The position numbers were made by a program, and so were the translations under genes. The notes under the pieces were generated by a model, which worked only from the letters and a program-made list of their open reading frames with translations, searched no databases and was not told the DNA's origin. Shown in pieces: positions 12,771 to 63,563 of a stretch of 64,000 nt of DNA. Source of the DNA: Conchocele bisecta (taxonomy: Eukaryota > Mollusca > Bivalvia > Lucinida > Thyasiridae). How positions within the stretch are numbered: the first letter of the stretch is position 1; each line of letters opens with the position of its first letter. Location of the stretch: NCBI GenBank assembly GCA_029237695.1, contig CM055272.1, forward strand, positions 35,226,791 through 35,290,790, written 5' to 3'.

Positions 12771-13380
12771 TTACCACTGAGGCTTTGGAGTTGACGCTAA
12801 GTACGACCGCAATATTGAACGAATTTCACACATTTTTAACTCGGGGATACTTAATGTGGGTTGAACCGTGTCCAAATTCACACGAAGGAAACATATTTGC
12901 TGCACGGGTCCTTCCACTTTGCTGTAGTTTATACAGAATCCTAGTCGCCTGAGTTGAGACATCAATGTGTTCAGAATATTTAGGCATTCGCCATAGGTGT
13001 CAGTGACAATGAGGAAATCGTCTAAATACGCAATGATACCATGCATCCCCTTGGCAGCCATGATGGCTCTCACTGCCTGTGTTATCCGGTGAAATGTTTC
13101 CGGGCTTTGGCTGGTGCCGAATGGAAGCCGTTCGTCAATCACGTATGTATCAATACTATCCGCGTGAAATCGCCATTTTAGGCCTGTTGCCTTATAATTA
13201 GAGGGGTGAATTTTAACACTACGGTAAGCACTCGCCAAGTCCACCTTAGCACAGTAAGCACCTGGGGTAATTAGATCTACCGCGTCCTGTAATGATTGAT
13301 AACGGAATGGGTAGTTATACGCGAAGTCGTTTAATGCTTGCCACGGGGGGCGACTGGCATCGTGTATGAGACGAATGCCG
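12771..13380 (-). pseudogene. Reverse transcriptase fragment (C-terminal palm/thumb), DIRS-like
   Basis: The frame shows IRLIHDASRP, the QSLQDAVDLITPGAYCAKVD block, the LPFGTSQSPETFHRI block and the active-site YLDDFLIV, as in DIRS-type reverse transcriptases. It is cut at its upstream side by the non-LTR insertion and loses the tail after the thumb through a small deletion. The same frame in copy 2 (54751-55812) continues unbroken across the insertion point. It is non-functional as it stands. Confidence 0.85.
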
Positions 13381-14608: not shown

Positions 14609-14908
14609 TTTCCGATTTCTTGGATACAACTCCCAATGCCGAAACAATACAGGGTTTCTCATGAAAAATCTTATAACGACCGTTATCTGATTCTGTACGA
14701 ATTTGTGATTCAACACGCGCGCGCATAAGGGCATCAGTGGCGGATTTATAATTATTCGTTTCCACGGGTTGTCGGATTTTCTCCGCGTCCACAATATGGA
14801 ATTCGTCGCGAATACCGAATATGCTGAATTCCCTGTCGCCGTAATCCATGGACAGGTCCGCTTCCCAGGTGTCTAACCGCAAGGCTGTTGATGGTTGCTT
14901 ACCGGGCT
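14609..14908 (-). pseudogene. Reverse transcriptase N-terminal part, DIRS-like copy 1
   Basis: The minus-strand frame, joined to the overlapping gag end, encodes PLEPGKQPSTALRLDTWEAD and continues to ALMRARVESQIRTESDNGRY. The corresponding intact stretch is in copy 2 at 55540-55840. The frame is severed at 14608 by the non-LTR insertion. At the gag/RT overlap this copy reads A ACA AAC rather than the slippery A AAA AAC of copy 2. Confidence 0.8.
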
Positions 14909-15615
14909 CTAGTGGTTTGTTGGCGCATTGTCCTTGGTGGCGCCATCGCTGAACTGGCGAGGGTGTCGACATTTACAAGATGTGCCAAACGGGCAGGCAC
15001 CTTTCGCCTTGAAGATCTTGCAGTCTTCTTTTCTCTCCGGTGCTGGTCCCTGGACTGACCCCTGTCCCTGTACCGTCTGGCGTCGTTTGGGAGTGAGAAG
15101 TTGTAACTCCATATGTGGACCGAAGGTTCCCCATTTGAACTGGTGTTCCGCTTGCATCTCCCGGCAGTGGAAATCGCATGTACGCATGTCGCAGTTGCAT
15201 GTACGGGTACACTAACAACAGGGGGTGGGACATTCCCAGACAGCAACTCATCTAGTCGCTTACCTGCGTCATTTAGGCCGATCGTTTGTGCCCGAATGTC
15301 CTTGATCGCAATGTCGTCGTCGACATGGTTGACGGCACTGACTGGCGTCTGATCGTCGTCGACGGTCGCCGGCTTCTGGAGATCACATTTAGCGGCCATG
15401 ATCAGCTTATATTGACCCATCGTAAATCCAAGTTCCTTCACATCCCGTACTTCCAACAATTTAATCGCTTTCCTTGTCGTTAATTCCTCCTTTTTCAGAA
15501 CTAACACAGATTTCCTCGTTAAACCACATTATACGGCCCATGCATCGAAATCAAACGAGTCCGTTTCTGCCGTCAACACAATGTCCACATGGTCATCACT
15601 GATATCGGTTGCCAT
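14909..15615 (-). pseudogene. Gag-like protein of DIRS-like copy 1, internally deleted
   Basis: The start ATG lies at 15613-15615, with the stop TAG at 14909-14911. The N-terminal region carries the LKKEELTTRKAI and ELGFTMGQYKLIMAA helices seen in copy 2, which look SAM-domain-like. The C-terminal part carries a CCCH zinc finger, CKIFKAKGACPFGTSCKCRH. About 360 bp of the middle is missing relative to copy 2 and the two halves are in different frames. A frame break in the first 35 codons (near 15508-15530) also separates the ATG from the helix region. Confidence 0.75.
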
Positions 15616-31235: not shown

Positions 31236-31550
31236 TACATTTCCAACAAAAAACTGATGTAATTTGAGCATTTATTCAGTATTTTCAGTACTTTTATAAA
31301 TCGTCCCATTCAAGTAGATAATTTTCGGTATTCATATTCCGGGGCCGCGTCATGAACGTCATGAACGTCATGAACGTCATGAAGTAGAGACGTCATGAAG
31401 AAACTTCCGCGTAGTGACGTCATGAAGGCACTTGGTCTACGCGCGGCCCCGGAATGAGCATTGCCTAAAGCCATATTCAAACAGCTCGCTCTATATGTTG
31501 TGCACATATGTGCAAACAACGGAAACCATGTAACAATATTTAAATAGACT
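31236..31550. other. Spacer left of Polinton copy A, with a GACGTCATGA cluster
   Basis: Inverted GGGGCCGCG / CGCGGCCCC arms at 31341-31450 enclose four tandem TGAACGTCA units and two TGACGTCA or GACGTCATGA palindromes. The Polinton homology stops at about 31551. Confidence 0.6.
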
Positions 31551-32195
31551 TGTACTTTTGTTCGGCCTGAGCCGTCATCAGTCTGAACGGATCTGGACTC
31601 TTCCACAATTTCAGACTCAGTGGAACATCATGCAGTAGTAGTCTGTCCTGTTGGCACAAGTCTATGGCTAGGGGTCCAATCATCTCGGCTTCTATGCCTC
31701 CCTTCGTATAGGTCGATCTAGTATGAAGACCACCAATTGGTCCGTCAGTCGACGGATCATCCATAAAGTTCCCGCTGGTATCCTTTGAGATAGTTGCCAC
31801 ACGAGTTTCCGAGCATCCACTTCGTCCAACACATTATCCAGGTATGCTTTGTAAGGGTAATTGCACCCCGTTTCGCTGACGGGATGTTGTTGTACGTTGA
31901 AATCGACTTGAGAAAATATAGTATGTAGAGGCGAGTTACTTAATCCCACTTCGTCATCGTCGGTTATAGCCAAGCCGTCGTTCTTGACAATTTTTAGTTT
32001 TATATACAATATACTGTTCTTCAAGTCCACGTACTGTGTGGAAGTACCCGGAATGGAAAACTCTATAGCGGAGCCTTCCGTGAGCTGATTGATTGGCCGA
32101 TGAGTTATCCATTCTTTATATCGTATTCCCGTTTCGGTAAGAGGCATTTGGAACAAAGCCAATTCGTCGTCGTGAATTTCATTTATTGAGGCCAT
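31551..32195 (-). pseudogene. Polinton major capsid protein (hexon-like), truncated and frameshifted
   Basis: The frame starts MASINEIHDDELALFQMPLT and contains EFSIPGTSTQYVDLKN, the hallmark N-terminal region of Polinton double-jelly-roll capsid proteins, which build the icosahedral shell. The frame shifts near 31795-31805, where copy B has one more T, and Polinton homology ends at 31551. Only about half the 421-codon gene of copy B is present. The start overlaps the end of the core-protein gene by 13 bases. It cannot encode a working capsomer as it stands. Confidence 0.88.
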
Positions 32196-32614
32196 AATTT
32201 GTTTTTGGTGATCTTCTTAGAAGATTTCTTCTTCTTAGATACAGTAAGTATCTTCTTCTTATAAGCTTGTGAGGTCTTTTTCTTAGATGATTGTTCGATC
32301 TTCTTCTTAGAAGGTTTCTTCTTCTTCTTACAGGATTGTGTGAGCTTCTTCTTCTTATTAACTGTCCGTCTTTTGGGAGCGTACCTTTTCTTCCCGAAGG
32401 TGTTCATGGCACCTTCTTGATGCTTCAGATCCGATTTCGCCAGTTCCACGGCGTGTGCCGTAGGTGTAACGAATGTGATCGACGGTTCCGCCGGTTTGTT
32501 ACCTCCCGTTTGAACGGAACGAACGAAGTAGTGTCCGTATTTATCGGGTCTCATTGACCCTTTCGACATGTTAGCAAAATGCCTCTGCCACACGTCGACA
32601 TCGTGGGTGGTCAT
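32183..32614 (-). CDS. Lysine-rich Polinton virion core-like protein
   Basis: 143 residues. The first 90 (MTTHDVDVWQRHFANMSKGS onward) are ordinary, and the last 50 are runs of KKK separated by S, P or T. Small very basic proteins in this position resemble adenovirus core proteins that condense DNA, and that role is inferred. The frame is intact in both copies (142 residues at 37943-38371, one lysine fewer). Its end overlaps the capsid gene start. Confidence 0.7.
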   Translation of the reverse strand: MTTHDVDVWQRHFANMSKGSMRPDKYGHYFVRSVQTGGNKPAEPSITFVTPTAHAVELAKSDLKHQEGAMNTFGKKRYAPKRRTVNKKKKLTQSCKKKKKPSKKKIEQSSKKKTSQAYKKKILTVSKKKKSSKKITKNKLWPQ

Positions 32615-32620
32615 GTTTTC

Positions 32621-32986
32621 CTAAGATGAAGAGACTAAATGTTTCAGATTGTCTCCTCTTATAAAGATTCGAACTCGTTGAAATGAGTCGGTTTTAACCG
32701 TTACGTACTGATACGCTAATGACGTTCTGTTTTCTCGAGTTGTATTGAATATGGTTCGTAGAATGGGATAAAACGTATCGCACACGTACGAGTCTTCGAT
32801 CAAGTCGCAGCACACGTGTATAGTGGTCGTCTCTATGTCGTTGGGAAATATTAATTCAGCCAAACCGCATTCCCAGATGCCGTCTAAATATAATGGTCTA
32901 GGTATTTCCACCGTAAAATCATATGCCGTATTTCCGGGATGACTCGCTTTCGAATCCTCACTGGATAAGAGCAGATAGTAACTCAT
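32621..32986 (-). pseudogene. Polinton penton-like minor capsid protein, C-terminus altered
   Basis: It begins MSYYLLLSSEDSKASHPGNT and includes DFTVEIPRPLYLDG and CGLAELIFPND, the recognisable N-terminal half of Polinton single-jelly-roll minor capsid (penton) proteins. Against copy B (37545-37946) a net 26-bp deletion near 32633 shifts the frame, replacing the last 17 residues by VSSS. The lost part contains the conserved CTLH strand at the C-terminus. Probably non-functional. Confidence 0.82.
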
Positions 32987-32994
32987 GATCCTTC

Positions 32995-33333
32995 TTATAA
33001 ATGTTCATCGATCAACCGTTTGAGTGTACGCCACTGTCGACGGTCCAACGATATACCGATGATGGTAGCGGTGCCGTTTAAGAATTTTCTGATATCTACT
33101 ATAGCGTCACCGCACGATGTAGCGTATATATTCCCTCCTAGACTATACTGATTGGCGAACCCCCACGAAGTCAGATTTAAGGTCCGCACTTCTGAACTTT
33201 CTTGGGAAATGGTTATACCTAATATCACTAACAGCGGTGACAGAATCGTCACTAACATCAAAGATATGCCTAGTAATTTGACGATCGCTAAGTGGTATTT
33301 CGTGACCGAAGACGTTTCTATGAAAGTTTCCAT
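32995..33333 (-). CDS. Polinton small membrane protein
   Basis: 112 residues with one strong hydrophobic segment, LLGISLMLVTILSPLLVILG (about residues 19-38), then a predicted exposed domain with two cysteines. The function is unknown. Copy B has the same protein with an 18-residue in-frame deletion. The gene lies 8 bp upstream of the penton-like gene and 34 bp downstream of the integrase. Confidence 0.6.
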   Translation of the reverse strand: METFIETSSVTKYHLAIVKLLGISLMLVTILSPLLVILGITISQESSEVRTLNLTSWGFANQYSLGGNIYATSCGDAIVDIRKFLNGTATIIGISLDRRQWRTLKRLIDEHL

Positions 33334-33367
33334 CTTCTTATACCAATTAATGGTGTAGGCAACGTTC

Positions 33368-34471
33368 TTATGAGTAATCTTTCACATCAATCTCAGGAAT
33401 CCATGAGTCGTATTTTTTGGGCCAATGAAGCCACCTAACGAGTACTTCCTTCAGATTGCCTCGCTTTCGTCTTCTAAGGATCTTGTCAATACGGAACGTT
33501 GTGTTCTCGTCTACACGTATCGACTGCAGTTCCTGTTCGTAAAACGTTCCCGATATCGCCTCTCCTTCCCAGTCATCCAATTTATATACGGGTATATTCT
33601 GTCGTAAATACCCGCTCTTGACTTTGAACAGTTCGCCGGTCCATTTTTGGGAATATTCTCCATCGAATACTCCTCTGACGTGAGATATTCGCACGATATC
33701 TCCGATATTATACTTCATTTTATGAATGGGTTTAGCTTCGGTAGGTCGACGTATCAGATACTGACGTAAACGTGACTCACTTTCGTTATTTTTCGTCACT
33801 GAAGACGGCGTTGTACTGAGTGAGCGGTGATTAGTATTGTTGCAGCTGGTCACTATATCTGTTAGAGCATCTACGTATCTATACGAATTGTTCTTCAGAA
33901 TGTATCTGTATATTTTGTGTTTGATAGTTTTAATAACCCTTTCCGCGTAGTTGGCTTTGGTTTCGTTTTGGGTGACGACGAAATGATCAATATCCGTATC
34001 CTTCAAGTACTTTTTCACGTCTCTGTTCGTAAATTCGGATCCTTTGTCCGTCCCGATGGACCCTGGTTGTCTCCCATTTAGGAACGTCTCTGTCATGGCT
34101 TTGGACACTTCCTTTCCCGTTTTATTCTTCAGAGAATGACACCACAGATAACGAGAAAAGATGTAAATCATCACGAGAACGTACTTGACGCCATCGTTAT
34201 ATTTAGAAATATTGCTCATGTCCATCAGATCCACATCCCATCGACTGTCTATACCATCGACGATCACTCGGGAACGTTCGAATTTTCTTCTGGCGTATCT
34301 GGTAAACGAATAAGCCTCTTGATCTTGTAACCATTGACGTACGTCTCGTTTCGTTATTTTAAATTTTCCCTCCAATTTCACTATCTTGCAGAGTTTATCC
34401 GGACCCGAAAAACTTCCAGGGTATTTGGGATCGAAATATATAGACGACAGGTAATCTTTCCAGTCAGACAT
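33368..34471 (-). CDS. Polinton retrovirus-type integrase with chromodomain
   Basis: 367 residues, apparently intact. It would insert element DNA into chromosomes. The RNase-H-like catalytic core spans about residues 70-230, with the acidic triad at D81 (in WDVDLMDM), D142 (in TDKGSEF) and E177 (in NYAERVIKTIK), spaced D-34-E. An SH3-like region follows (KYNIGDIVRIS), and a C-terminal chromodomain covers residues 325-367 (FRIDKILRRRKRGN, then tryptophans at 347, 350 and 357), which may steer integration to marked chromatin. A canonical HHCC finger is not obvious. The start overlaps the stop of the 75-residue gene by one base. Copy B lacks the first 29 codons. Confidence 0.93.
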   Translation of the reverse strand: MSDWKDYLSSIYFDPKYPGSFSGPDKLCKIVKLEGKFKITKRDVRQWLQDQEAYSFTRYARRKFERSRVIVDGIDSRWDVDLMDMSNISKYNDGVKYVLVMIYIFSRYLWCHSLKNKTGKEVSKAMTETFLNGRQPGSIGTDKGSEFTNRDVKKYLKDTDIDHFVVTQNETKANYAERVIKTIKHKIYRYILKNNSYRYVDALTDIVTSCNNTNHRSLSTTPSSVTKNNESESRLRQYLIRRPTEAKPIHKMKYNIGDIVRISHVRGVFDGEYSQKWTGELFKVKSGYLRQNIPVYKLDDWEGEAISGTFYEQELQSIRVDENTTFRIDKILRRRKRGNLKEVLVRWLHWPKKYDSWIPEIDVKDYS

Positions 34472-34698
34472 TATAAACTAATCCACTTAGATAGTCTCTT
34501 CTTTTTATGGGATCTGATACCTGGAGGAATTATTCGATCCGTCGTAGATCCTTGACGTTCAGAGTCCTTCTTCGGTCGTTGACAATCGAGATCATCAGTT
34601 TGAACAGCCTTTTCTATGGCATCTCTACTACGGGTATTGTTGGGATGTCCAACGTATTTTTCGTAAGGTACCAGAACAGTCTTTCGTACTTCCTTCAT
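34471..34698 (-). CDS. Small basic Polinton protein, 75 residues
   Basis: No recognised domain. Basic at both ends, with a Lys-rich C-terminus (KKKRLSKW). It overlaps the preceding 108-residue gene by four bases (ATGA) and the integrase start by one base, which supports a real gene in a compact viral array. Confidence 0.5.
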   Translation of the reverse strand: MKEVRKTVLVPYEKYVGHPNNTRSRDAIEKAVQTDDLDCQRPKKDSERQGSTTDRIIPPGIRSHKKKRLSKWISL

Positions 34699-35021
34699 GT
34701 TAAAAAGTTACTAAGTACCCCCTCGATAGACTTGATAAGTATCACGATCACCAGATCTCGACCTCTCAACAGATTTTGCTTTCTACGTAGACTGACTGAT
34801 TTGTCTCCGAGAGTACGTATCAACGTCTTGTACTTTCCGAGTTCGCTTTTCCTTTTAGACGTGAGCGGTAATACTCCCTCCAATAAATTGACGATAATTT
34901 CGATGAGGGCCTTTAGTTGATATTTGGTAATGGTGTCCAATAACGCTCTTCTATGCTTCCTAGATGAGGTCGTTGACATCAGTTGGAAGAATGCGACGTT
35001 CTTCTTAACTAATTTACTCAT
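34695..35021 (-). CDS. Conserved small Polinton protein, 108 residues
   Basis: It has a helical region with the pattern KHRRALLDTITKYQLKALIE, then PLTSKRKSELGKYKTLIRTL, and a hydrophobic C-terminal helix (DLVIVILIKSIEGVLSNF). I recognise this layout (ALL...QLKAL, PL, then K-rich, then a hydrophobic tail) from invertebrate Polintons, where it is a small structural-type protein of unproven role. It may be an adenovirus pVI/pX-like virion protein, but that is inference. Confidence 0.6.
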   Translation of the reverse strand: MSKLVKKNVAFFQLMSTTSSRKHRRALLDTITKYQLKALIEIIVNLLEGVLPLTSKRKSELGKYKTLIRTLGDKSVSLRRKQNLLRGRDLVIVILIKSIEGVLSNFLT

Positions 35022-35052
35022 CTTGTTATAATTTTCAGACGTCTCACACCTC

Positions 35053-35705
35053 TTATAAACTGCTCGCCACGTATATGACGGGATCTTCTCCGACGAATAC
35101 GTTCGTTCTCAGTCTATATTCATCCTCGGCGTAAGGAACGCTGTCGACTAGTAAATAACCGAATGGACGTTTCGTAGCGTCCTGATACGCTTCAACGAGT
35201 ATACCCGACTTTCTAGGAAATATCTGACGTCCTAACGTAGCGATCTGAGTCATATCTCTGACATTCTTGAACAAAACGAGGTACCCGGTGTTGAGAGCTA
35301 TGGTACGAGCGGACTTGCCGCGACTGTAAAGGTTTTGTACGACAAATATAACGCTAATATTCTGGTGATGACAGCCTCTCGTGAACAGATGTTCCATTTC
35401 CGGATTCTCCACCACTCTATGCATCAGGTCGTCTAAAACGATCAGTCCTTGTTCACCGTCGGCAAACTCGTCTATTTCGGGCCGATTCGGGAGTCCTTGA
35501 TGTAGAGTGAAACTAGGAATGTCCCTTTCGAGATCATTGAAAAGTGGTTGGAATGACCCGTAACAGTACAGTATCTTCTTAGGTGGATCCTTGACGTACA
35601 TTCCATCTAGATTCTTTAGTAATCGTACGATCCAATGAGTCTTTCCGACTCCAGTAGGACGGAGTTAAACTCTCGGCTTCCCACCAGTCCATATTTACCA
35701 GTCAT
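35053..35705 (-). pseudogene. Polinton FtsK/HerA-type DNA-packaging ATPase, frameshifted at Walker A
   Basis: The related A32/FtsK-HerA ATPases pump DNA into capsids. The likely start ATG is at 35703-35705. After about 17 codons the frame changes by one base near 35660-35670, and the Walker A (PTGVGKTHW) and all the rest are in the second frame. Walker B is EQGLIVLDDLMH, followed by the arginine-bearing SVIFVVQNLYSRGKSARTI sensor region. The C-terminal half runs unbroken to the TAA at 35053. One indel therefore inactivates it unless it is a sequencing error. Copy B lacks this gene. Confidence 0.85.
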
Positions 35706-35717
35706 GCGGTATATAGT

Positions 35718-36017
35718 CTATTTATAAGTTTCTCGTTTCTTCATCTGGGGATTAGGTAAAGCGTAACCTATGCAACTACTCAATAAACTGATCCAAAGTT
35801 CCGTAGATCCATTTTGTAATGACAGATTCGTTATTGAAGCGATGATTATAATGTACACTATTATCATCTGACAAAAGTATACAATTTCTTCCCGCGGAAC
35901 GCGAGTTCCTAGCAAATGCCAAAGTTCTTCGTTAACTTCTTGGTCAACGTCAGGTTTTGGGAAACCTATATCTTCTTCTTCTTCTAACAAGGTTTCAGAA
36001 GTATTTGTTTCCGCCAT
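35718..36017 (-). CDS. Polinton membrane protein, 99 residues
   Basis: An acidic N-terminus (EEEEDIGFPKPD) is followed by VPREEIVYFCQMIIVYIIII, a transmembrane helix, then NLSLQNGSTELWISLLSSCIGYALPNP with a second helix. This helix-loop-helix pattern ending in GY.LPNP is one I recognise from small unnamed Polinton proteins. The frame is intact. It is the first gene inside the terminal repeat, preceded by a TTATAAGAAG motif at 36041-36056. Confidence 0.6.
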   Translation of the reverse strand: MAETNTSETLLEEEEDIGFPKPDVDQEVNEELWHLLGTRVPREEIVYFCQMIIVYIIIIASITNLSLQNGSTELWISLLSSCIGYALPNPQMKKRETYK

Positions 36018-36065
36018 ATTCTTGATTGAGATATATAAGACTTCTTCTTCTTATAAACATTACCA

Positions 36066-36115
36066 TAAGAGGTCACTCTGCATACATCGTACGAGATGCA
36101 CTCAGACTTGTGACT
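36066..36115. repeat. Polinton copy A terminal inverted repeat
   Basis: Read outward-in on the minus strand it begins AGTCACAAGTCTG and ends GCAGAGTGACCTCTTA. 45 of 50 bases match 51251-51300. The AG start is the usual Polinton terminus. Family J host repeat follows directly on its outer side. Confidence 0.8.
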
Positions 36116-36183
36116 TTTTTTATCAGGCTCGGCTCGGAAACGGTAGGAATTCCTCGGCAAGCCATTCCTAGGCGTTTCCTAGC
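36116..36183. repeat. Family J fragment between the two Polinton copies
   Basis: TCAGGCTCGGCTCGGAAACG with GGAATTCCT matches J1 and J2. It separates the terminus of copy A from the truncated start of copy B. Confidence 0.65.
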
Positions 36184-37217
36184 CTCCGGATAAACTCTAC
36201 AAGATAGTGAAATTGGAGGGAAAATTTAAAATAACGAAAGGAGACGTACGTCAATGGTTACAAGATCAAGAGGCTTATTCGTTGACCAGATACGCCAGAA
36301 GAAAATTCGAACGTTCCCGAGTGATCGTCGATGGTATAGACAGCCGATGGGATGTGGATCTGATGGACATGAGCAATATTTCTAAATATAACGATGGCGT
36401 CAAGTACGTTCTCGTGATGATTTACATCTTTTCTCGTTATCTGTGGTGTCATTCTCTGAAGAATAAAACTGGAAAGGAAGTGTCCAAAGCCATGACAGAG
36501 ACGTTCCTAAATGGGAGACAACCAGGGTCCATCGGGACGGACAAAGGATCCGAATTTACGAACAGAGACGTGAAAAAGTACTTGAAGGATACGGATATTG
36601 ATCATTTCGTCACCCAAAACGAAACCAAAGCCAACTACGCGGAAAGGGTTATTAAAACTATCAAACACAAAATATACAGATACATTCTGAAGAACAATTC
36701 GTATAGATACGTAGATGCTCTAACAGATATAGTGACCAGCTGCAACAATACTAATCACCGCTCACTCAGTACGACGCCGTCTTCCGTGACGAAAAATAAC
36801 GAAAGTGAGTCACGTTTACGTCAGTATCTGATACGTCGACCTACCGAAGCTAAACCCATTCATAAAATGAAGTATAATATCGGAGATATCGTGCGAATAT
36901 CTCACGTCAGAGGAGTATTCGATGGAGAATATTCCCAAAAATGGACCGGCGAACTGTTCAAAGTCAAGAGCGGGTATTTACGACAGAATATACCCGTATA
37001 TAAATTGGATGACTGGGAAGGAGAGGCGATATCGGGAACGTTTTACGAACAGGAACTGCAGTCGATACGTGTAGACGAGAACACAACGTTCCGTATTGAC
37101 AAGATCCTTAGAAGACGAAAGCGAGGCAATCTGAAGGAAGTACTCGTTAGGTGGCTTCATTGGCCCGAAAAATACGACTCATGGATTCCTGAGATTGATG
37201 TGAAAGATTACTCATAA
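36184..37217 (+). pseudogene. Polinton integrase of copy B, N-terminally truncated
   Basis: It matches residues 25-367 of the copy A integrase, with a one-codon deletion (a single V in HFVTQNE) and a few substitutions. The frame is open from 36186, and the nearest ATG is at 36207. The DDE residues and the C-terminal chromodomain are preserved. The missing first two dozen codons leave it without its original start. Confidence 0.88.
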
Positions 37218-37251
37218 GAACGTTGACTACACCATTAATTGGTATAAGAAT

Positions 37252-37536
37252 ATGGAAACTTTCATAGAAACGTCTTCGGTCACGAAATACCACTTAGCGA
37301 TCGTCAAATTACTAGGCATATCTTTGATGTTAGTGACGATTCTGTCACCGCTGTTAGTGATATTAGGTATAACCATTTCCCAAGAAAGTTCAGAAGTGCG
37401 GACCTTAAACCTGACTTCGTGGGGGTTCGCCAATCAGTATAGTCTAGGAGGGAATATATCCGCTACCATCATCGGTATATCGTTGGACAGTCGACAGTGG
37501 CGTACACTCAAACGGTTGATCGATGAACATTTATAA
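37252..37536 (+). CDS. Polinton small membrane protein, copy B, 54-bp deletion
   Basis: 94 residues, identical to the copy A protein in the membrane segment but missing 18 residues near residue 70. The deletion is flanked in copy A by the short direct repeat CGCTAC, which suggests slippage or microhomology repair. The frame is kept. Confidence 0.65.
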   Translation: METFIETSSVTKYHLAIVKLLGISLMLVTILSPLLVILGITISQESSEVRTLNLTSWGFANQYSLGGNISATIIGISLDSRQWRTLKRLIDEHL

Positions 37537-37544
37537 GAAGGATC

Positions 37545-37946
37545 ATGAGTTACTATCTACACTTATCCAGTGAGGATTCGAAAGCGAGTCATCCCGAAAA
37601 TACGGCATATGACTTTACGGTGGAAATACCTAGACCATTATATTTAGACGGCATCAGGGAATGCGGTTTGGCTGAATTAGTATTTCCCAACGACATAGAG
37701 ACGACCACGATACACGTGTGCTGCGACTTGATCAAAGACTCGTACGTGTGCGATACGTTTTATCCCATTCTACGAACCATATTCAATACAACTCGAGAAA
37801 ACAGAACGTCATTAGCGTATCAGTACGTAACGGTTAAAACCGACTCAATTCAACGAGTTCGAATCTTTATAAGAGGAGACAATCTGAAACATTTAGACTC
37901 TGATTCTGACTCTGTGAACTGTACTCTTCATCTTAGGAAAACATGA
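37545..37946 (+). CDS. Polinton penton-like minor capsid protein, copy B
   Basis: 133 residues, begins MSYYLHLSSEDSKASHPENT, same family as 32621-32986. It retains the Asp/Ser-rich C-terminal tail that ends CTLHLRKT, as expected of the last strand of a jelly roll. The frame is open, so this is the better copy of the two. Its stop overlaps the core-protein start by four bases. Confidence 0.85.
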   Translation: MSYYLHLSSEDSKASHPENTAYDFTVEIPRPLYLDGIRECGLAELVFPNDIETTTIHVCCDLIKDSYVCDTFYPILRTIFNTTRENRTSLAYQYVTVKTDSIQRVRIFIRGDNLKHLDSDSDSVNCTLHLRKT

Positions 37947-38371
37947 CCACCCACGATGTCGACTTGTGGCAGAGGCATTTTGCTAACATGTCGAAAGGGT
38001 CAATGAGACCCGATAAATATGGACACTACTTCGTTCGTTCCGTTCAAACGGGAGGTAACAAACCGGCGGAACCGTCGATCAAATTCGTTACACCTACGGC
38101 ACACGCCGTGGAACTGGCGAAATCGGATCTGAAGCATCAAGAAGGTGCCATGAACACCTTCGGGAAGAAAAGGTACGTTCCCAAAAGACGGACAGTTAAT
38201 AAGAAGAAGAAGCTCACACAATCCTGTAAGAAGAAGAAGAAACCTTCTAAGAAGAAGATCGAACAATCATCTAAGAAGAAGACCTCACAAGCTTATAAGA
38301 AGATACTTACTGTATCTAAGAAGAAGAAACCTTCTAAGAAGATCACCAAAAACAAATTATGGCCTCAATAA
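37943..38371 (+). CDS. Lysine-rich Polinton core-like protein, copy B
   Basis: 142 residues, one lysine shorter than the copy A protein and otherwise nearly the same, with a KKK-rich second half. Its start overlaps the penton-like stop (ATGA), and its end overlaps the capsid start by 13 bases. Confidence 0.7.
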   Translation: MTTHDVDLWQRHFANMSKGSMRPDKYGHYFVRSVQTGGNKPAEPSIKFVTPTAHAVELAKSDLKHQEGAMNTFGKKRYVPKRRTVNKKKKLTQSCKKKKKPSKKKIEQSSKKKTSQAYKKILTVSKKKKPSKKITKNKLWPQ

Positions 38372-39623
38372 ATGAAATTCACGACGACGAATTGGCTTTG
38401 TTCCAAATGCCTCTTACCGAAACGGGAATACGATCTAAAGAATTGATAACTCATCGGCCAATCAATCAGCTCACGGAAGGCTCCGCTATAGAGTTTTCCA
38501 TTCCGGGTACTTCCACACAGTACGTGGACTTGAAGAACAGTATATTGTATATAAAACTAAAAATTGTCAAGAACGACCGCTTGGCTATAACCGACGATGA
38601 CGAAGTGGGATTAAGTAACTCGCCTCTACATACTATATTTTCTCAAATCGATTTCAACGTACAATAACATCCCGGCAGCGAAACGGGGTGCAATTACCCT
38701 TACAAAGCATACCTGGATAATGTGTTGGACGAAGTGGATGCTCGGAAACTCGAGTGGCAACTATTCTCAAAGGATACCAGCGGGAACTTTATGGATGATC
38801 CGTCGACTGACGGACCAAATGGTGGTCTTTATACTAGATCGACCTATACGAAGGGAGGCATAGAAGCCGAGATGATTGGTCCCCTAGCCATAGACTTGTG
38901 CAAACAGGACAGATTTCTCTACTGAATGGTGTTCCACTGAGTCTGAAATTGTGGCAGAGTCCGGATCCGTTCAGACTGATGACGGCTCAGGCCGAACAAA
39001 AGTACAAGGTTGCCATCACCGATGCCAGTTTGAAGTTGTCTTTAGTCAAAGTGGATCCTAACGTTTTCATAGCGCAATCTAACGTATTGAAGGACCACAG
39101 CGCTCTCTACCCGTATACGAGAACTAATATAAAGACGTACGCGGTACCCAGGTGTCAATATAGCTTCATTACCGACGACCTGTTTCAAGGAGAAGTCCCG
39201 AAACAACTGATCTTGGGTATCGTATCTTCCTCGGCAACTCACGGTTCCTACGTCAAGAATCCCTTCTACTTTCAAAACTTAAACTGTATCTACGTAGGAT
39301 TCTTCGTCGATGGCAAATCTACGCCATCGCATCCATTACAACCGAACTACGAAGCCGGTAGTTTCTTAGAGGCTTACCAAAGATTGTACTCTGTCGATCG
39401 ACCACGAGCCGCACCAATTACTAGAGAATCATTCGCGGACGGATATTGTTTGTACGTATTCAACCCGGACGGAGACGTCAGAGATCGGATCCGTCAGAGA
39501 GCTCATACTCTACTAGAGCTAAAGTTCGCCAAATCTCTACCAGAAGCTTGTACCGTGATCGTATATTCCAAGTTCCCCGCATTGATGAAAATAGATGCCA
39601 GTCGGAACGTTACTCTGGAATGA
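38359..39623 (+). pseudogene. Polinton major capsid protein, copy B, one nonsense codon and one frameshift
   Basis: It spans about 421 codons. The N-terminal part (FSIPGTSTQYVDLKN) ends at a TAA (38665-38667), where copy A has CAA, a single C-to-T change. The same frame resumes to a TGA at 38923-38925, where a small indel has shifted the frame. The remaining two thirds (from about 38926) read in the next frame to the TGA at 39621-39623. The shell-forming double jelly roll is recognisable in all three pieces. Confidence 0.9.
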
Positions 39624-40060
39624 TGAATACTCGACAACTTCGTACGGCACTGACCTCAAATCCCACGACTCGAAGTCAGTTCGGAGGAGTGTGTTCGGCG
39701 GATATGATACCTAACATCGTTCGACGTCGGCCTAGACTTTATATAGTCAATACGGATACCAGTTCTTATCCCGGTAAAAATTGGGTGTCGTTTTATTTTC
39801 CGACAAAGGGACCCCCGGAATTCTTCGACCCCATGGGACACTCCCCCGAGTATTACCATCTCTGATTCCGGAACGTTTTACTGACCAACGGACCTAAATA
39901 CATTTACAATTGTCGGAGATTACAAGGCCCCGAATCAGTATATTGCGGACAGTTTTGCTTGTATTACGGATATCGACGTTGTCGAGGAACGAGCATGATA
40001 ACGATAGTCAACGAGTTTAGTAGTACAAATTACGTCCTTAACGACGAAATTGAGATGTGA
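39620..40060 (+). pseudogene. Adenovirus-type maturation protease of Polinton copy B, with nonsense codon
   Basis: It would be a 146-codon cysteine protease (adenain/Ulp1-like) that processes capsid precursors. Motifs are GVCSADMIP near residue 24, GKNWVSFYFP at 52-61, FFDPMG at 68-73, and the Gln/Cys pair in CGQFCLYY (Q111, C113). The catalytic histidine expected just before W55 is asparagine (AAT). An in-frame TGA at 39863-39865 stops translation after residue 81, before the cysteine. The start overlaps the capsid stop (ATGA). The rest of the frame is clean to the TGA at 40058. Confidence 0.87.
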
Positions 40061-50400: not shown

Positions 50401-51250
50401 CGAGATGCACCATAAATTAGAAATTAGCTATTTAAACAACAATTGTGGAAACAACATTGGTCGCGAAAACCAATGACTCGGCACATGCATAGGCAATGTT
50501 GAATATCCCCCACCCACTTGAATTCATGTTAGATTGAATACAATGGAATTATTTTAGTAGCCCTGTGGTTAAAAGTGCTGTCGAAGTCAGCACGATTCAA
50601 ATATTGGTCAACAGTAATAAAGAAATAATTCCTACCTGAAACGAATGTTTCGTGTCTGGCAGCTAATAGACTTATGTAAAATGTAGGTCAATTATTGATG
50701 CGTCTTGGCTGTCGCCGTATTGTCCTCTCAACATTAGCAAATTTGCAGAAATGTATTTCCGTACTTAGAGCTTATCAACAACGAAGACAGCAATAATTTC
50801 ACGATGTCTTGGACCAGTACGTGTAATGGCAGGACACGAAATATAGTATGACGTCACAATGAAAACACAATCGCATTTAACAACAAATAACTGACTTTTT
50901 AAACGTAAATTTGTTATTGATTGGTATATTACATTAAAAAAAAGTGTCCTGTGTCCAATAAATTGGACACATGACACTATGGCGTTTAGTAAAAAGGTTC
51001 AAATATTGACTCTGTATGTACCAGACAAAATTACATGCGTATTATTATTTTAATATAACCTATCAATGTTTACAGGTGTTAGCATGTTTCAATATTGAAC
51101 TAGCATATAGCTTGTTGGTATTGGCACACTTTCATTTTACGAACCAATTGTAATTATAGAACGCCTGTAACTATTCACGAGAATATAGGCGTTCTATGAA
51201 AAAAATATATAAAAAATGGGGGGATTGCAAAGAGGGTAATGCAGCATCTC
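47461..51250. other. Intergenic, AT-rich, with a TAACGGTAATGA motif cluster
   Basis: No gene was recognised over 3.8 kb. Between 48120 and 48880 the string TAACGGTAATGA or close variants occurs at least eight times on both strands. Elsewhere there is a hairpin at 51156-51200 (AGAACGCCTGT / AGGCGTTCT). Confidence 0.45.
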
Positions 51251-51300
51251 AGTCACAAGTCTGGGAACATCTCTTACGGTGTATGCAGAGTGACCTCTTA
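51251..51300. repeat. Terminal inverted repeat of Polinton fragment C
   Basis: It begins AGTCACAAGTCTG and ends GCAGAGTGACCTCTTA. It differs from 36066-36115 (reverse complement) at five of 50 positions by eye, and similarity fades at the inner edge. Confidence 0.78.
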
Positions 51301-51337
51301 GGGAATAACGTAGCACAATTTATTTACATAATTTTAT

Positions 51338-51847
51338 TTACAACGTATTTAATTCCAATTCTATAAGAGTAGGAAGTACAACATCATACATATTGTTCTT
51401 GATTCCCGTAATGAGAATTTTACCATTATGAAAACAAGTAAAGTGAACAGTGTCTCTCTTGGGCATGGCAGCTAGAAACAGTTCCGGTTCGTAGTGAGCT
51501 CTCATGTTCATACACAACGATTCCATAGATAGGTTCCCGTTGACTCGGTAATACGCCGACATGGTGACTATCTTCACCTTGGTCGAGTTAACGTCGTACC
51601 CGTAACGACGTAAGCGATCGATGTAAGCGTTGATCCGTATTATGCCCTTTGATTCGCAGTCAGACTTTCCGTTGACGACGATCTTGTCCGTCTTGAACGC
51701 TATGCAGCAACCTCCGAGTTCGGGATCTTTCAATATCGCTCCGTTGAATCTTCGTGGGTCGTATTTGATGTCAGGACATATACAACTCAGACGAGACAAG
51801 TCTATGAGACAGTTACAGTCCGACGTACACACTATATTGGTAATCAT
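51338..51847 (-). CDS. Divergent TATA-box-binding protein (TBP-like), Polinton-associated
   Basis: 169 residues, the size of the TBP core. TBP binds and bends promoter DNA to start transcription. The two-repeat saddle is visible. Repeat 1 has ITNIV at the start, YDPRRFNGAILKDPE, CIAFKTDKIVVNGKSDCES and the helix INAYIDRLRRYGYDV. Repeat 2 has YRVNGNLSMESL, HYEPELFLAAM and VHFTCFHNGKILITGIK. The four phenylalanines that wedge into TATA DNA align at F34, F51, F124 and F139, with the exact 17-residue spacing in repeat 1 and a loop two residues shorter in repeat 2. Elsewhere it is strongly diverged, so it is not a simple copy of the host gene. The frame is intact. Its ATG overlaps the stop of the upstream small gene (ATGA), and its stop lies 38 bp from the terminal repeat. 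Confidence 0.85.
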   Translation of the reverse strand: MITNIVCTSDCNCLIDLSRLSCICPDIKYDPRRFNGAILKDPELGGCCIAFKTDKIVVNGKSDCESKGIIRINAYIDRLRRYGYDVNSTKVKIVTMSAYYRVNGNLSMESLCMNMRAHYEPELFLAAMPKRDTVHFTCFHNGKILITGIKNNMYDVVLPTLIELELNTL

Positions 51848-52040
51848 CGTAGATCGGGTTGATTCCGTATCACGTACACGAAACGATTGGCCGCTTCTCT
51901 CGCTTCGAATTTCAGTTTATAATACGGTATACAATTCTTGGCCACGTATTCGTGAAACAAGTACATCACAACTAACACGTAGTGTCTCTTCGATGCCTAA
52001 GTTTTCAACCGCTGCTCTCGCTTCTCGTATTAGTATTCGT
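51844..52040 (-). pseudogene. Unknown gene upstream of the TBP-like gene, one frameshift
   Basis: The 3' part (from about 51990 to the TGA at 51844-51846) reads MYLFHEYVAKNCIPYY then KLKFEAREAANRFVYVIRN, a helical, mixed-charge protein. Further upstream, near 52000-52040, an adjoining frame reads IREARAAVENLGIEE. The two are one base out of register at about 51985-51995, and no ATG precedes the upstream part. The four-base ATGA overlap with the TBP-like gene suggests co-expression. No family was recognised. Confidence 0.5.
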
Positions 52041-53202
52041 GTACTTAGTTGTATGACTGTCTAACCTATATATAACCAATATATATATTCGCTGTGGTAG
52101 CTATGTCCGTAAGTTGTATGGTTGTCTACAGAGTTTCAACATATGTATATATATATACACGTTCGCTGCGGTAAACATTGTGCATATATTATATAACTAT
52201 AGTCTAATGAATAGTATGACGTTAGACTTCTGACATATAATTATATAACTATATTCTAATGAATACTCGCCAGTACGATAGTTATGTTAGACATTGGTAA
52301 TATATTATATAACTATGGCATAATGTTATGTAGTACCACAATGCTGTTCACTATGGTCACATACTATATAACTAATGAATGGTAGCCAATACAATGGCTG
52401 TGAAAAACATATCACTGTGGTCATATATTATATAACTAATGAATGGTAGCCAATACAATGGCTGTGAAAAACATATTATATAACTATGGTATAATGTTAT
52501 GTAGTACCACAATGCTGTTCACTGTGGTCATATATTATATAACTAATGAATGGTAGCCAATACAATGGCTGTGAAAAACGTTCGTGGTATATTATATAAC
52601 TATCGAACAATAGAATAAATGTTAGCTCAGCGCTAGAGCGTCGGACTAGGGCATTGGATTTCATCGGGGAGTGTATGTCGATATTGACAGTCGAGTCGAT
52701 ATACGTATGTGCGTAATTTGGCACCTGGTACAATGTTGTACATACAATGAAGAATAATTTTACTGTATCGGACTAGGGCATTGGATTTCATCGGGGAGTG
52801 TATGTCGAGTCGTTCTGAGAATGACATCATCGTTCCGCGATTTCATTGGTAAGTTTTGAGATAGATTTTGATTGGTTAACAATATGGCGTTCTGACTGGT
52901 CAACAAGATGTATCTCTTGTCATTCGATCGTTAGTCACCGTGCTGTGAACATCGTATATTTTTAATTTTTAAACAAAAATACTTTAAGGGACATGACAAT
53001 GCGTGGTTTGAGTTATCATCAAAACTTGTTTCAATTGTGAACGCACATTCAGACTATATTGACATTAACGGAAAAATAATAGTGACGATGGTGGGTCACC
53101 CTGCAGATTGATTTGCTAGTGTGAGGGGGGGGGGGTGGTGGGTGGGGTAGGGTATGGTGACACGACAGTCCCACTGATGACGCCTGAAGTCGGCAGAAAC
53201 CC

Positions 53203-53275
<73 letters not shown>

Positions 53276-53296
53276 GTGTGTGTGTATGTGTGTGTA
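53203..53296. repeat. (TG)n microsatellite
   Basis: About 45 TG dinucleotides with a few C or A interruptions. Confidence 0.95.
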
Positions 53297-54264
53297 CCTG
53301 TCAAGAACATACAGAACGTATGATCAGCTCTCGGTGAGTATTATAGCTGATTAGTTTACATTTAAAACCTTCTGCACAGGTATATCAATACATTATATAA
53401 CTAGTGACAGTCACGACGTGCGATATACACGAATGCATGGTCAGTATAGGTACTGTTAAGGTGTGTAATATATTATTATGAATATAACTCCATTTAAGGT
53501 AAGCGTGCAGATTTAATAATATCGATATTGTATAGATGTGTTGTAGTCTATGTTAGAATGAAAAGCTCCAGTATGGTTAGTAATATTTGGGACATAACGT
53601 AATTTATGAGCAAATGTGAAATTATGATGAATACTTTTACTGTATATAGAGCGTCGGACTAGGGCATTGGATTTCATCGGGGAGTTTAGACTTCTGACAT
53701 ATAATTAAATAACTATATTCTAATGAATACTCGCCAGTACGATAGTTACGTTAGACATTGGTCATATATTATATAACTATGGTATAATGTTATGTAGTAC
53801 CACAATGCTGTTCACTGTGGTCATATATTATATAACTAATGAATGGTAGCCAATACAATGGCTGTGAAAAACGTTTGTGGTATATTATATAACTATCGAA
53901 CAATAGAATAAATGTTAGCTCAGCGCTAGAGCGTCGGACTAGGGTATTGGATTTCATCGGGGAGTGTCTGTCGATATTGACAGTCGATATACGTATGTGC
54001 GTAATTTGACACCTGGTACAATGTTGTACATACAATGAAGAATAATTTTACTGTATCGGACTAGGGCATTGGATTTCATCGGGGAGTGTATGTCGAGTCG
54101 TTCTGAGAATGACATCATCGTTCCGCGATTTCATTGGTCAGTTTTGAGATCGATTTTGATTGGTTAACAATACGGCGTTCTGATTGGTCAACAAGATGTA
54201 TCTCATGTCATTCGATCGTTAGTTTATGTGCTGTGAACATCGTATATTTTTAATTTTTAAACAA

Positions 54265-54750: not shown

Positions 54751-55812
54751 TTAAATAAATCCATGAAATGGATCCACCACAATATGCCAGCTTTCATCTC
54801 CACAGCCACACGTGTACGATGCCATGGTGAACGTTGCAGCATTGGCACGGTCAATTAGGTGCCTCATGTAAAACCGACCTCCATATATGCATTGCGTAAT
54901 CCAATTAAGTTTACCACTGAGGCTTTGGATTTGACGTTTTGTAACTTTATGAAACGCTAAGTACGAGCGCAATATTGTACGAATTTCACACATTTTTAAC
55001 TCGGAGATACTTAATGTGCGTTTAACCGTGTCCAAATTCACACCAATGAAACATATGTGCTGCACGGGTCCTTCCACTTTGCTGTAGTTTATACAGAAGC
55101 CTAGTCGCCTGAGTTGAGACATCAATGTGTTCAGAATATCAAGGCATTCGCCATAGGTGTCACTGACAATGAGGAAATCGTCTAAATACGCGATGATACC
55201 ATGCGTCCCCTTGGCAGCCATTATGGCTCTCACTGCCTGTGTTATCCGGTGAAATGTTTCCGGGCTTTGGCTGGCGCCGAATGGAAGCCGTTCGTCAATC
55301 ATGTATGTGTCAATATTATCCGCGTGAAATCGCCATTTTAGGCCTCTTGCTTTATAATTAGAGGGGTGAATTTTAACACTACGGTAAGCACTCGCCAAGT
55401 CCACCATAGCACAGTAAGCACATGGGGTAATTAGATCTACCGCGTCCTGCAATGATTGATAACGGAATGTGGAGTTATACGCGAAGTCGTTTAATGCTTG
55501 CTCCGTGGGGCGACTGGCATCGTGTATGAGACGAATGCCGTCCGATTTATTGGGTACAACTCCCAATGCCGAAACAATACAGGGTTTCTCATGAACAATC
55601 TTATAACGACCGTTATCTAATTCCGTACGAATTTGTGATTCAACACGCGCGCGCATAAGGGCATCAGTGGCGAATTTATAATTATTCGTTTCCACGGGTT
55701 GTCGGATTTTCTCCGCGTCCACAATATGGAATCCGTCGCGAATACCTGATATGATGAATTCCCTGTCACCGTAATCCATGGGCAGGTCAACTTCCCAGGT
55801 GTCTAACCGCAA
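54751..55812 (-). CDS. Reverse transcriptase (RNase H truncated), DIRS-like copy 2
   Basis: 353 codons from the ATG at 55810-55812. The frame is open further upstream across the gag end (to about 55850), so translation probably starts by frameshift from gag. It would copy element RNA into DNA. Motifs are GVVPNKSDGIRLIHDASRP, YQSLQDAVDLI, MVDLASAYRSV, LPFGASQSPETFHRI, the catalytic IIAYLDDFLIVSD and SLSGKLNWITQ (thumb). After DESWHIVVDPFHG a one-base shift puts the RNase H motif FNGTMPMVENRP out of frame, so the protein ends early. Confidence 0.88.
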   Translation of the reverse strand: MRLDTWEVDLPMDYGDREFIISGIRDGFHIVDAEKIRQPVETNNYKFATDALMRARVESQIRTELDNGRYKIVHEKPCIVSALGVVPNKSDGIRLIHDASRPTEQALNDFAYNSTFRYQSLQDAVDLITPCAYCAMVDLASAYRSVKIHPSNYKARGLKWRFHADNIDTYMIDERLPFGASQSPETFHRITQAVRAIMAAKGTHGIIAYLDDFLIVSDTYGECLDILNTLMSQLRRLGFCINYSKVEGPVQHICFIGVNLDTVKRTLSISELKMCEIRTILRSYLAFHKVTKRQIQSLSGKLNWITQCIYGGRFYMRHLIDRANAATFTMASYTCGCGDESWHIVVDPFHGFI

Positions 55813-55838
55813 GGCTGTTGATGGTTGCTTACCGGGCT

Positions 55839-56915
55839 CTATTGGTTTTTTGGCGCATTGTCCTTGGTGTTTTTTGGCGCATTGTCCTTGGTGGCGCCAT
55901 CGCTTAACTGGCGAGGGTGTCGAAATTTACAAGATGTGCCAAACGGGCAGGCACCTTTCGCCTTGAAGATTTTGCAGTCTTCTTTCCTTTCCGGTGCTGG
56001 TCCCCTGACTGACTCCTGTCCATGTACCGTCTGGCGTCGTTTGGGAGTGAGCAGTTGTAACTCCATATGTGGAGTGAAGGTTCCCCATTTGAACTGGTGT
56101 TCCGCTTGCATCTCCCGGTAGTGGAAATCGAAGTCCAGCACGCTATGCCACTCGTATTTCTCAGCAAATTCGAATATTTTTGCTGTGTACGCCAGGTAAT
56201 ACTCCATGTCTGGCCGAGGCAACTGTACTGTCTGTAATAGATGGTTGAGTACCCGGCGGTTTGATGCACCCCATTCCTCGATATAAATCCCAGCATATGG
56301 GTGATCATCCTCGCATTTGATGAGAAAACGCTCACTGTCCGGGCCGCTTGTTTTCATCACGAAATCCTTCCGCCTGCTCTAACGTCGACGTTTAGCCTTT
56401 TCCGTCAGGAACTGTGTCACGTGCACAGCTTTGCGAGACTGTGACTTCATAGTCAATATTGTTCGCGGATCGACTGTAGATGTAGGGTTTTCAGTCGCAT
56501 GTACGGGTACCCTAACAACAGGGGGTGGGACATTCCCAGACAGCAACTCATCTAGTCGCTTACCTGCGTCATTTAGGCCGATCGTTTGTGCCCGGATGTC
56601 CTTGATCGTAATGTCGTCGTCGACATGGTTGACGGCACTGACTGGCGTCTGATCGTCGTCGACGGTCGCCGGTTTCTGGAGATCACATATAGCGGCCATG
56701 ATCAGCTTATATTGACCCATCGTAAATCCAAGTTCCTTCACATCCCGTACTTCCAACAATACAATCGCTTTCCTTGTCGTTAATTCCTCCTTTTTCAGAA
56801 CTATCACAGATTTCCTCATTAAACCACATTCTGCGGCCCATGCATCGAAATCAAACGAGTCCGTTTCTTCCGTCAACACAATGTCCACATGGTCATCACT
56901 GATATCGGTTGCCAT
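55839..56915 (-). pseudogene. Gag-like protein with SAM-like N-terminus and CCCH zinc finger, one nonsense codon
   Basis: One frame from the ATG at 56913-56915 to the TAG at 55839-55841, broken by an in-frame TAG at 56379-56381. The N-terminal region has an acidic stretch, then the helical LKKEELTTRKAI / ELGFTMGQYKLIMAA segment, which is SAM-like. The middle has EWGASNRRVLNHLLQTVQLP, and the C-terminal part a nucleic-acid-binding CCCH finger (CKIFKAKGACPFGTSCKFRH, spacing C-8-C-5-C-3-H). Its last codons lie in a 24-bp tandem duplication containing the slippery heptamer. Confidence 0.85.
55845..55875 (-). promoter_or_regulatory. Candidate -1 ribosomal frameshift site at the gag/RT overlap
   Basis: The heptamer A AAA AAC is in the gag zero frame at 55845-55851, immediately before the gag TAG, and again at 55869-55875 through a 24-bp duplication. 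Slipping back one base enters exactly the RT frame. This is one of the strongest known retroviral slippery sequences. A downstream pseudoknot was not tested. Confidence 0.6.
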
Positions 56916-62584: not shown

Positions 62585-63068
62585 TCGGGTCGATACTACG
62601 ATAGTACGATAGTACGATACTACGATGACGACAGTACGATACTACGATGACGATAGTATGATACTACGATGACGATAGTACGATATCACGTTGACGATAG
62701 TACGATACCACGATGACGATAACGAGATACCACGACAGTACGATAGCACGTTGACGATAGTACGATACCACGATGACGATAACGAGATACCACGATAGTA
62801 CGATGACGATACTATGATATTATATCGTACTATCGTCATCGTAGTATCGTACTATCGTCATTGTAGTATCGTACTATCGTACTGTCGTGATCTCGTAGTA
62901 TCGTACTATCGTCATCGTGCTATCGTACTATCGTCATCGTAGTATCGTACTATCGTCATCGTGGTATCGTACTATCGTACTGTCGTGATCTCGTAGTATC
63001 GTACTATCGTCATCGTGCTATCGTACTATCGTCATCGTAGTATCGTACTATCGTCATCGTGGTATCGC
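62585..63068. repeat. Palindromic minisatellite
   Basis: Units such as GATACTACGATGACGATAGT run on one strand to about 62818. The complementary units (ATCGTACTATCGTCATCGTA) then run on to 63068. The centre is GATATTATATCG. The whole could fold into one long imperfect hairpin. Confidence 0.9.
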
Positions 63069-63563
63069 CTTTCGGATGGACACACGCATGCGCATTTTTT
63101 GTCTGCGAAATTGGCAGTACGCCTTAATCAAGGTGGGGGATCACGTGGTTTCCGAATGGCATGACGTCATGTATTGTAGATGTGTTTACAGTATAATCTT
63201 TGTGAAGTTATTGTAAAGAACTTTCAGAGCACCCATAAAACACATATGCCATCGTATTTGGTGCGCTACATATCATCAAAATCTGTCCCTTTGTTAGGAA
63301 GATTTTAATGAAAATCGACTGTAAAAATGACGTCACAGATTACGTCACGTCGGAAAATCGGGTTCGGAATCCACGTAATCACACACCTTGTTAATAGCAC
63401 AAACAAGAATTTCGGCGCAAACGGCGCAAACAAGATCAATTTTTAAAATATCTATCTTAAATACCTGTTAAATGAAATTAAATCAATCTAATGATGATTA
63501 TATATAAAAATACCGCCGAATTACCTCGTCATCCATTGTTTTGATGCGAATGCGCATGTCCAT
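63069..63563. other. Intergenic, nothing recognised
   Basis: It contains two TGACGTCA-type sites (63157-63168 and 63330-63350). No gene. Confidence 0.4.

Follow-up and report, generated by a model that had tools for sequence, protein, structure and literature searches.

Polintons are regarded as lying close to the root of many DNA viruses of eukaryotes, and to our knowledge little is known about the transcription of those found in animals. The window analyzed here (the whole stretch of 64,000 nucleotides from the bivalve Conchocele bisecta) raises the question of whether such an element can supply its own promoter-recognition factor. From the letters of this stretch it had been predicted that one of its ORFs encodes a TATA-binding protein (TBP) and that this is a Polinton gene. 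We think it probable that two Polinton lineages, designated N and F, carry a TBP of their own, encoded without a break in one frame, in a cassette with PC4-like genes and a small ORF, and that this TBP would recruit host TFIIB and RNA polymerase II (Pol II).

The ORF has the sequence and predicted fold of a TBP

The ORF of 169 residues plus stop occupies positions 51338-51847 of the minus strand; the plus-strand frame is broken by stops. It matches the Pfam TBP family PF00352 at 3.2e-17 (62.6 bits, cut-off 22.9) with both TBP repeats present, and the TBP of lineage F scores 95.1 bits against the same family. PDB TBPs are matched by the window sequence at 1e-11 and by a profile built from 19 relatives at 2e-29. 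With the 19-relative alignment as input, AlphaFold2 predicted the two-repeat saddle fold (pLDDT 91.9, pTM 0.80). Foldseek aligned this model to human TBP (1cdw) with a TM score of 0.88, and all 44 PDB matches at E<=0.001 are, by title or name, TBPs or TBP-holding complexes. The original prediction had proposed such a structural comparison as its own check, and the fold that came back is that of TBP.

Identity to yeast TBP is 27-34% in the alignment of Polinton TBPs. In the alignment, F34, F51, F124 and F139 of the window TBP fall on the Phe residues of yeast TBP that we take to intercalate into the DNA. All four are Phe in lineage N; in lineage F they read F, F, F, H. The YEPELF motif is presumably the stirrup of TBP that contacts TFIIB. 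The two repeats, YEPELF and the four Phe residues had all been read from the window beforehand, and the PF00352 match and the alignment to yeast TBP agree with that reading. As judged from sequence and model, the ORF encodes a TBP, with TATA binding and TFIIB recruitment as its predicted activities.

The window copy is a decaying fragment

The window copy itself is a truncated, decaying (dead) Polinton fragment (Table 1). Trp39, Gly54 and Pro125, conserved in most relatives, are changed in its TBP, and the PC4-like gene expected between the subterminal repeats and the small ORF is deleted. Taken alone, a decaying fragment among repeats would permit a reading in which a host TBP/TRF paralogue or retrocopy was caught in or beside decayed Polintons by chance and has no function for the element.

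TABLE 1 Polinton-related features of the window
Positions	Strand	Feature	Remarks
33368..34471	-	Polinton integrase of the window TBP's lineage	rve + chromodomain; left palindrome arm
35053..35601	-	Polinton ATPase fragment	No Pfam match of its own at E 0.01; homologue is L028:3187-3618
36063..36115	-	Second occurrence of the 53-bp block	Adjoins capsid/ATPase arm of a related Polinton
36207..37217	+	Integrase	Right palindrome arm
38898..39623	+	Capsid-type (MCP) gene, C-terminal part	Name presumed from position and resemblance
39446..39865	+	ORF over adenain-like protease region	Relative L012:796-1281 matches Peptidase_C5 at 0.0012
51199..51303	-	Conserved intergenic block 3' of TBP	Homology to other copies ends at 51199, the fragment end
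51338..51847	-	Polinton TBP gene, lineage N	169 aa + stop; frame intact, conserved residues altered
51844..51966	-	Conserved small ORF, 3' part	ATGA overlap with TBP start; truncated, 50 codons open
52169..54066	-	Subterminal repeat region common to other lineage-N copies	Abuts small ORF; PC4-like gene absent

TBP is a resident gene of two Polinton lineages

With the window TBP as query, the 1.89-Gb host genome gave 101 matching stretches at E<=1e-3, some of them pieces of one copy. The copies fall into two groups: lineage N, which resembles the window copy, and lineage F, which is about 45% identical. Nine N and ten F loci were fetched by TBP-score rank, each together with some 8 kb of upstream and 1.5 kb of downstream sequence, and the gene neighborhoods of these 19 loci were probed by tblastn. 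In every one of the nine N loci a protease gene lies 3' of TBP on the opposite strand, facing it, and seven of the nine have a capsid-type gene. All ten F loci have an integrase gene directly after TBP and also a penton-like gene; at one of them (L018) the integrase ATG lies 3 nt past the TBP stop. A further 20 F copies, the next in rank, were fetched with 0.9 kb past TBP, and 19 of them contain integrase, giving integrase next to TBP in 29 of 30 F copies overall (the one exception lacks it within 0.9 kb).

The adjoining stretches were followed further at one locus per lineage. The stretch beside N locus L009, L028, holds capsid-type, penton-like, integrase, X, ATPase and PolB genes, and the one beside F locus L018, L029, holds pieces of capsid-type, protease, X, ATPase and PolB genes. 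PolB (PF03175, a family B DNA polymerase of the putatively protein-primed type) is matched in L028 at 6.3e-13 and 9e-12 and in L029 at 2.4e-5, where the 23.8 bits fall short of the cut-off of 25.8. The integrase has rve and chromodomain matches in both lineages, the chromodomain of L018 falling just under its cut-off. For the remaining genes the matches are lower: a protease relative reaches Peptidase_C5 with 19 bits (0.0012, cut-off 21.3), the ATPase at L028:3187-3618 has weak AAA_11 and Pox_A32 matches below cut-off, and a 431-aa capsid-type candidate has no Pfam match and no PDB sequence match below E 0.1. Where Pfam gives no match (MCP, penton, X, PX), the gene name is presumed from position and resemblance. 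We did not count as linked to TBP a PolB match at L011:3568-4272 (oriented), which lies outside that element's left end, nor the PolB matches of L015 and of the L016 edge. A comparison of broken integrase with broken TBP copies was set aside because the loci had been picked by TBP score.

These neighborhoods support, at the level of sequence, the view that TBP is a resident gene of Polintons in both lineages. This is what had been predicted from the window. Integrase accompanies TBP in F and protease in N, with PolB and putative ATPase and capsid-type genes in the adjoining stretches. The prediction would have failed had homologues turned up at host TBP/TRF loci alone; the copies examined lie among Polinton genes. 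Recurrence of the same neighbors in 38 of the 39 fetched loci of the two lineages argues against chance capture of a host gene.

PC4-like genes and a small ORF accompany TBP

The original prediction had not included any partner genes of TBP, and those found upstream of it were unexpected. In lineage N, the gene upstream of TBP contains two PC4 stretches (PF02229, 2.3e-21, 75.5 bits, cut-off 25). Its product matches PDB PC4 by sequence at 4.4e-6, has a PC4 domain with KKGISL, and combines two PC4 units in one chain with a conserved Cys/His tail. Lineage F has three PC4-like genes in a row, with PF02229 matches of 0.0022, 0.021 and 2.8e-10; the third, at 40 bits, exceeds the cut-off of 25, and the first and second (17.9 and 14.8 bits) are below it. 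PC4-like genes are present in seven of nine N loci (one of the seven partial, two loci without) and in ten of ten F loci, one of which lacks gene 1. For the N protein, AlphaFold2 gave a model of intermediate confidence (pLDDT 69) made up of two four-strand-plus-helix units. Its top PDB fold match is PUR-alpha (0.0013), followed by PC4 (0.005, TMt 0.72); this double-PC4 model had no PDB fold match at E 0.001 or better.

The overlap of TBP with an upstream gene by ATGA, noted in the original prediction, recurs: a small ORF overlaps the TBP start in this way in the window and in eight of nine N loci (L010 is without such an ORF). It is open for 53-102 codons in those eight and for 50 in the window, and its relative in lineage F lies upstream of PC4-like gene 2. 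A separate protein with a membrane-like segment has a C-terminal part that looks PC4-like; the N version at 32995-33333 and the F version at L018:6768-7193 are 32% identical (E 9e-12), the former lying beside integrase and the latter inside the PC4-TBP cassette.

A profile search with the PC4-like proteins returned 232 proteins at E<=1e-6, with Ruditapes philippinarum and Mactra antiquata among the 120 matches listed. In public assemblies, 11 TBP/PC4 pairs are on contigs of exactly equal size, where 0.24 are expected. The test compared the 71 TBP rows and the 62 PC4 rows whose longest contig reaches 2 kb or more; jittered sizes gave a maximum of 4 in 5000 runs. The linkage of TBP and PC4-like genes in other assemblies is thus one of equal contig size, not of contig names, and it too speaks against a host retrocopy.

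Relatives, constraint and origin

Among 5.8 billion proteins, the single TBP sequence found 17 relatives and an alignment query found 342 at E<=1e-12. The 120 of these 342 that were listed are mostly 169-176 aa long. The named ones among them come from Mercenaria mercenaria (two) and from bins labeled Sedimenticola and Candidatus Thiodiazotropha, which probably hold host DNA; the others listed have automatic TFIID/TBP names only. Some clusters comprise 198 and 288 sequences, in keeping with a mobile family. Scans of viral contigs in which the window TBP, alignment A1, P0061, the window integrase or a yeast TBP core served as query confirmed no relative, and genome contigs searched with alignment A2 gave no match. 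Phage records searched with P0061 gave two records of one archaeal virus, weakly (E 0.2).

In a tree of 126 rows, the 121 rows of such relatives stand apart from five cellular TBPs with full support. The cellular rows are few (two of them eukaryotic) and the branches are long, so the tree shows one clade and not its origin. The lineage F TBP is closer to eukaryotic TBPs (best 1.1e-23) than to archaeal ones (best 1e-20), and an ultimately cellular source is therefore likely.

TBP dN/dS is 0.09-0.14 between F sub-lineages (dS 0.46-0.51) and 0.27-0.34 in lineage N (dS 0.14-0.20) when young pairs are left aside. Young pairs differ by few changes and give scattered values between 0 and about 1, as expected after insertion. 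The low sub-lineage values and the scattered young pairs indicate that TBP was constrained while the elements spread and that copies, the window one among them, decay later. The PC4-like genes give 0.18-0.46 (one pair per gene), and the first part of the integrase gives 0.04 in one pair with dS near saturation. A host retrocopy would agree with the greater nearness to eukaryotic than to archaeal TBPs. Given TBP dN/dS of about 0.1-0.3 between sub-lineages and the deep separation of the 121-row clade from the five cellular TBPs (few as these are), together with the shared neighborhoods, we regard it as highly improbable.

The repeat beside TBP is internal

The original prediction had tied TBP to Polintons through a terminal repeat supposed to lie 38 bp away, and this ground was wrong. 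The 53 bp at 51251-51303 do recur at a second place in the window (89% identity, E 7e-14). The AGTCACAAG block lies between the 3' ends of the TBP and protease genes in all nine N loci, and another copy lies inside the element in L028, between PolB and the capsid/ATPase arm. With protease directly following in nine of nine N loci and an internal copy in L028, AGTCACAAG was ruled out as a terminal repeat; it is an internal one. As an observation apart, a conserved block of 53-85 bp occurs twice, as direct repeats, in a lineage-N element (51199-51303, 36063-36115 and L028:3961-4045), 3' of TBP/protease and 3' of PolB, and is possibly a processing, termination or packaging signal.

The left end of the element is likely AGTAGTATAG. 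In nine of 19 loci the homology shared by the copies starts at or close to an AGTAGT that continues with ATAG or a variant of it. From this end to TBP is 1.7-5.0 kb in lineage N and 3.6-3.8 kb in lineage F, TBP being downstream. The assignment fits the commonest end motif of vertebrate Mavericks, AGT twice (PMC8097293). No right end was found in L028 or L029, and a search for a target-site duplication found none.

Promoter-type motifs and the role of the cassette

Upstream of the first cassette gene lies TATAAAAG in lineage N (L009) and TATATATA in lineage F (L018). In an exploratory count, made after the sequences had been viewed, nine of ten TTATAA sites in L028:1-4045 are at most 80 bp upstream of gene starts (one start placed by window homology), and seven of nine sites in the left arm of the window are equally close. 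In lineage N, TTATAA precedes most gene starts, several of these sites being the terminal TTA-TAA of the preceding gene. The pattern is absent upstream of gene starts in lineage F. A fixed TATA code for element genes is at most an exploratory proposal: it is confined to N, consists partly of TTA-TAA Leu-stop pairs, and includes sites too near the ATG for a canonical TATA box.

That no uniform promoter motif was found in both lineages would suit a decoy or shut-off factor, a TBP that occupies host TFIIB or promoters and lowers host transcription without driving element promoters, as would a protein in which YEPELF is kept and the DNA-facing side is partly changed (the fourth Phe to His in lineage F). 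We consider a decoy unlikely, since all four intercalating Phe residues are kept in lineage N and co-inherited PC4-like genes would seem to fit activation of transcription better.

A second motif, TTATATAA, is over-represented in lineage N subterminal repeats: the counts are 6, 6 and 12 sites, whereas shuffles give 0.3-0.6 (0 of 200 as high). This would be expected if TBP and the PC4-like proteins served replication or packaging, through bending and single-strand binding at the ends, and not transcription; PC4 is a single-strand DNA-binding fold, the PC4-like model has PUR-alpha as its first fold match, and the cassette is near the element end. The N sites are not independent because they are located in tandem repeats, and the enrichment is absent from the lineage F subterminal region. 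Moreover, the TBPs described for the viruses compared below are transcription factors. We judge a replication role to be quite unlikely.

The mechanism that we favor is transcriptional and builds on the predicted TBP fold, the residence in Polintons, the repeated neighborhood of Polinton and PC4-like genes and the constraint at the protein level. An ordinary TATA promoter would first let the host machinery transcribe the PC4-TBP cassette. The TBP so produced would then bind A/T-rich promoters of element DNA, and its conserved YEPELF stirrup would recruit host TFIIB and Pol II, while the double PC4 protein may aid promoter opening or stabilize the initiation complex. The outcome would be to favor the replication and capsid genes of the element, which would be partly independent of host transcription. 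Dependence on host Pol II is assumed because no TFIIB or RNA polymerase gene was noticed among the element genes found. We hold it an even call whether a stronger version applies, in which a Polinton-size element would achieve TFIID-independent initiation at its own promoters with host TFIIB and Pol II by means of a dedicated minimal module (TBP and a single-chain double PC4), as an old, selected trait of a large bivalve, perhaps wider, Polinton clade.

Relation to known systems

Like cellular TBP (the TFIID subunit of PF00352), the Polinton TBP has the two-repeat saddle, YEPELF, the intercalating Phe positions (all four in N) and the length of the core domain; unlike it, the Polinton TBP has no N-terminal domain, has a signature of its own and occurs in many copies inside Polintons. 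The PC4-like proteins share with PC4/SUB1 (PF02229) the KKGISL-bearing PC4 domain and, in the model, the four-strand-plus-helix units, and differ from it in having two PC4 units per chain, a Cys/His tail and divergent paralogues within one element.

DNA viruses with a TBP of their own are the nearest parallel. Giant viruses encode one, as BFVD matches show (E 2.7e-9), examples being Heterosigma akashiwo virus 01 and Chrysochromulina parva virus BQ1. C. parva virus BQ1 is reported to have both TBP and TFIIB, which are said to redirect host RNA polymerase (PMC12085832), a precedent for the mechanism proposed here. Mirusviruses, likewise eukaryotic DNA viruses that bring their own TBP, are reported to have it in 59% of genomes (PMC10132985). 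Giant viruses and mirusviruses differ in having far larger genomes (437 kb is given for one C. parva virus) and further transcription genes. The TBP-bearing element would be of ordinary Polinton size, as estimated from the genes found, its right end not being among the finds.

With Polintons, Mavericks and adintoviruses the element shares the rve-chromo integrase and PolB PF03175 and probably also the adenain-like protease, the ATPase, the capsid-type genes and the AGTAGT end; TBP and PC4-like genes are the difference, not being described there in the accessible text of the literature found. No literature linking Polintons with TBP or PC4 was found in a search that left most subscription papers and preprints outside. 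In it, 'polinton' paired with 'TATA-binding protein' or 'TBP' in other contexts only, as far as the accessible texts go, and with 'PC4' not at all. A Mercenaria genome paper puts Mavericks at 1.7-1.9% of the assembly, and its accessible text contains neither 'TATA' nor 'TBP'.

If the proposed mechanism is true, an element lacking an RNA polymerase of its own can still take control of promoter recognition, and Polintons join giant viruses and mirusviruses among the TBP carriers. The Polinton TBPs form a natural, far-diverged TBP family in which the TFIIB-facing side is kept and, in lineage N, the intercalating residues as well. They also offer a testable handle in the DNA that the element TBP binds and in the need of element genes for it.

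Other features of the window

Positions 31549-39008 hold the two arms of one Polinton fragment, 96-99% complementary, in a head-to-head palindrome with an open integrase frame in each arm. Similar retroelement fragments lie at 12771-15507 and 54751-56915, one with an RVT_1 match and, by eye, an adjoining CCCH-type Gag-like ORF. At 62591-63094, short ACGATAGT-type repeats stand in inverted arrays that could form a large cruciform.
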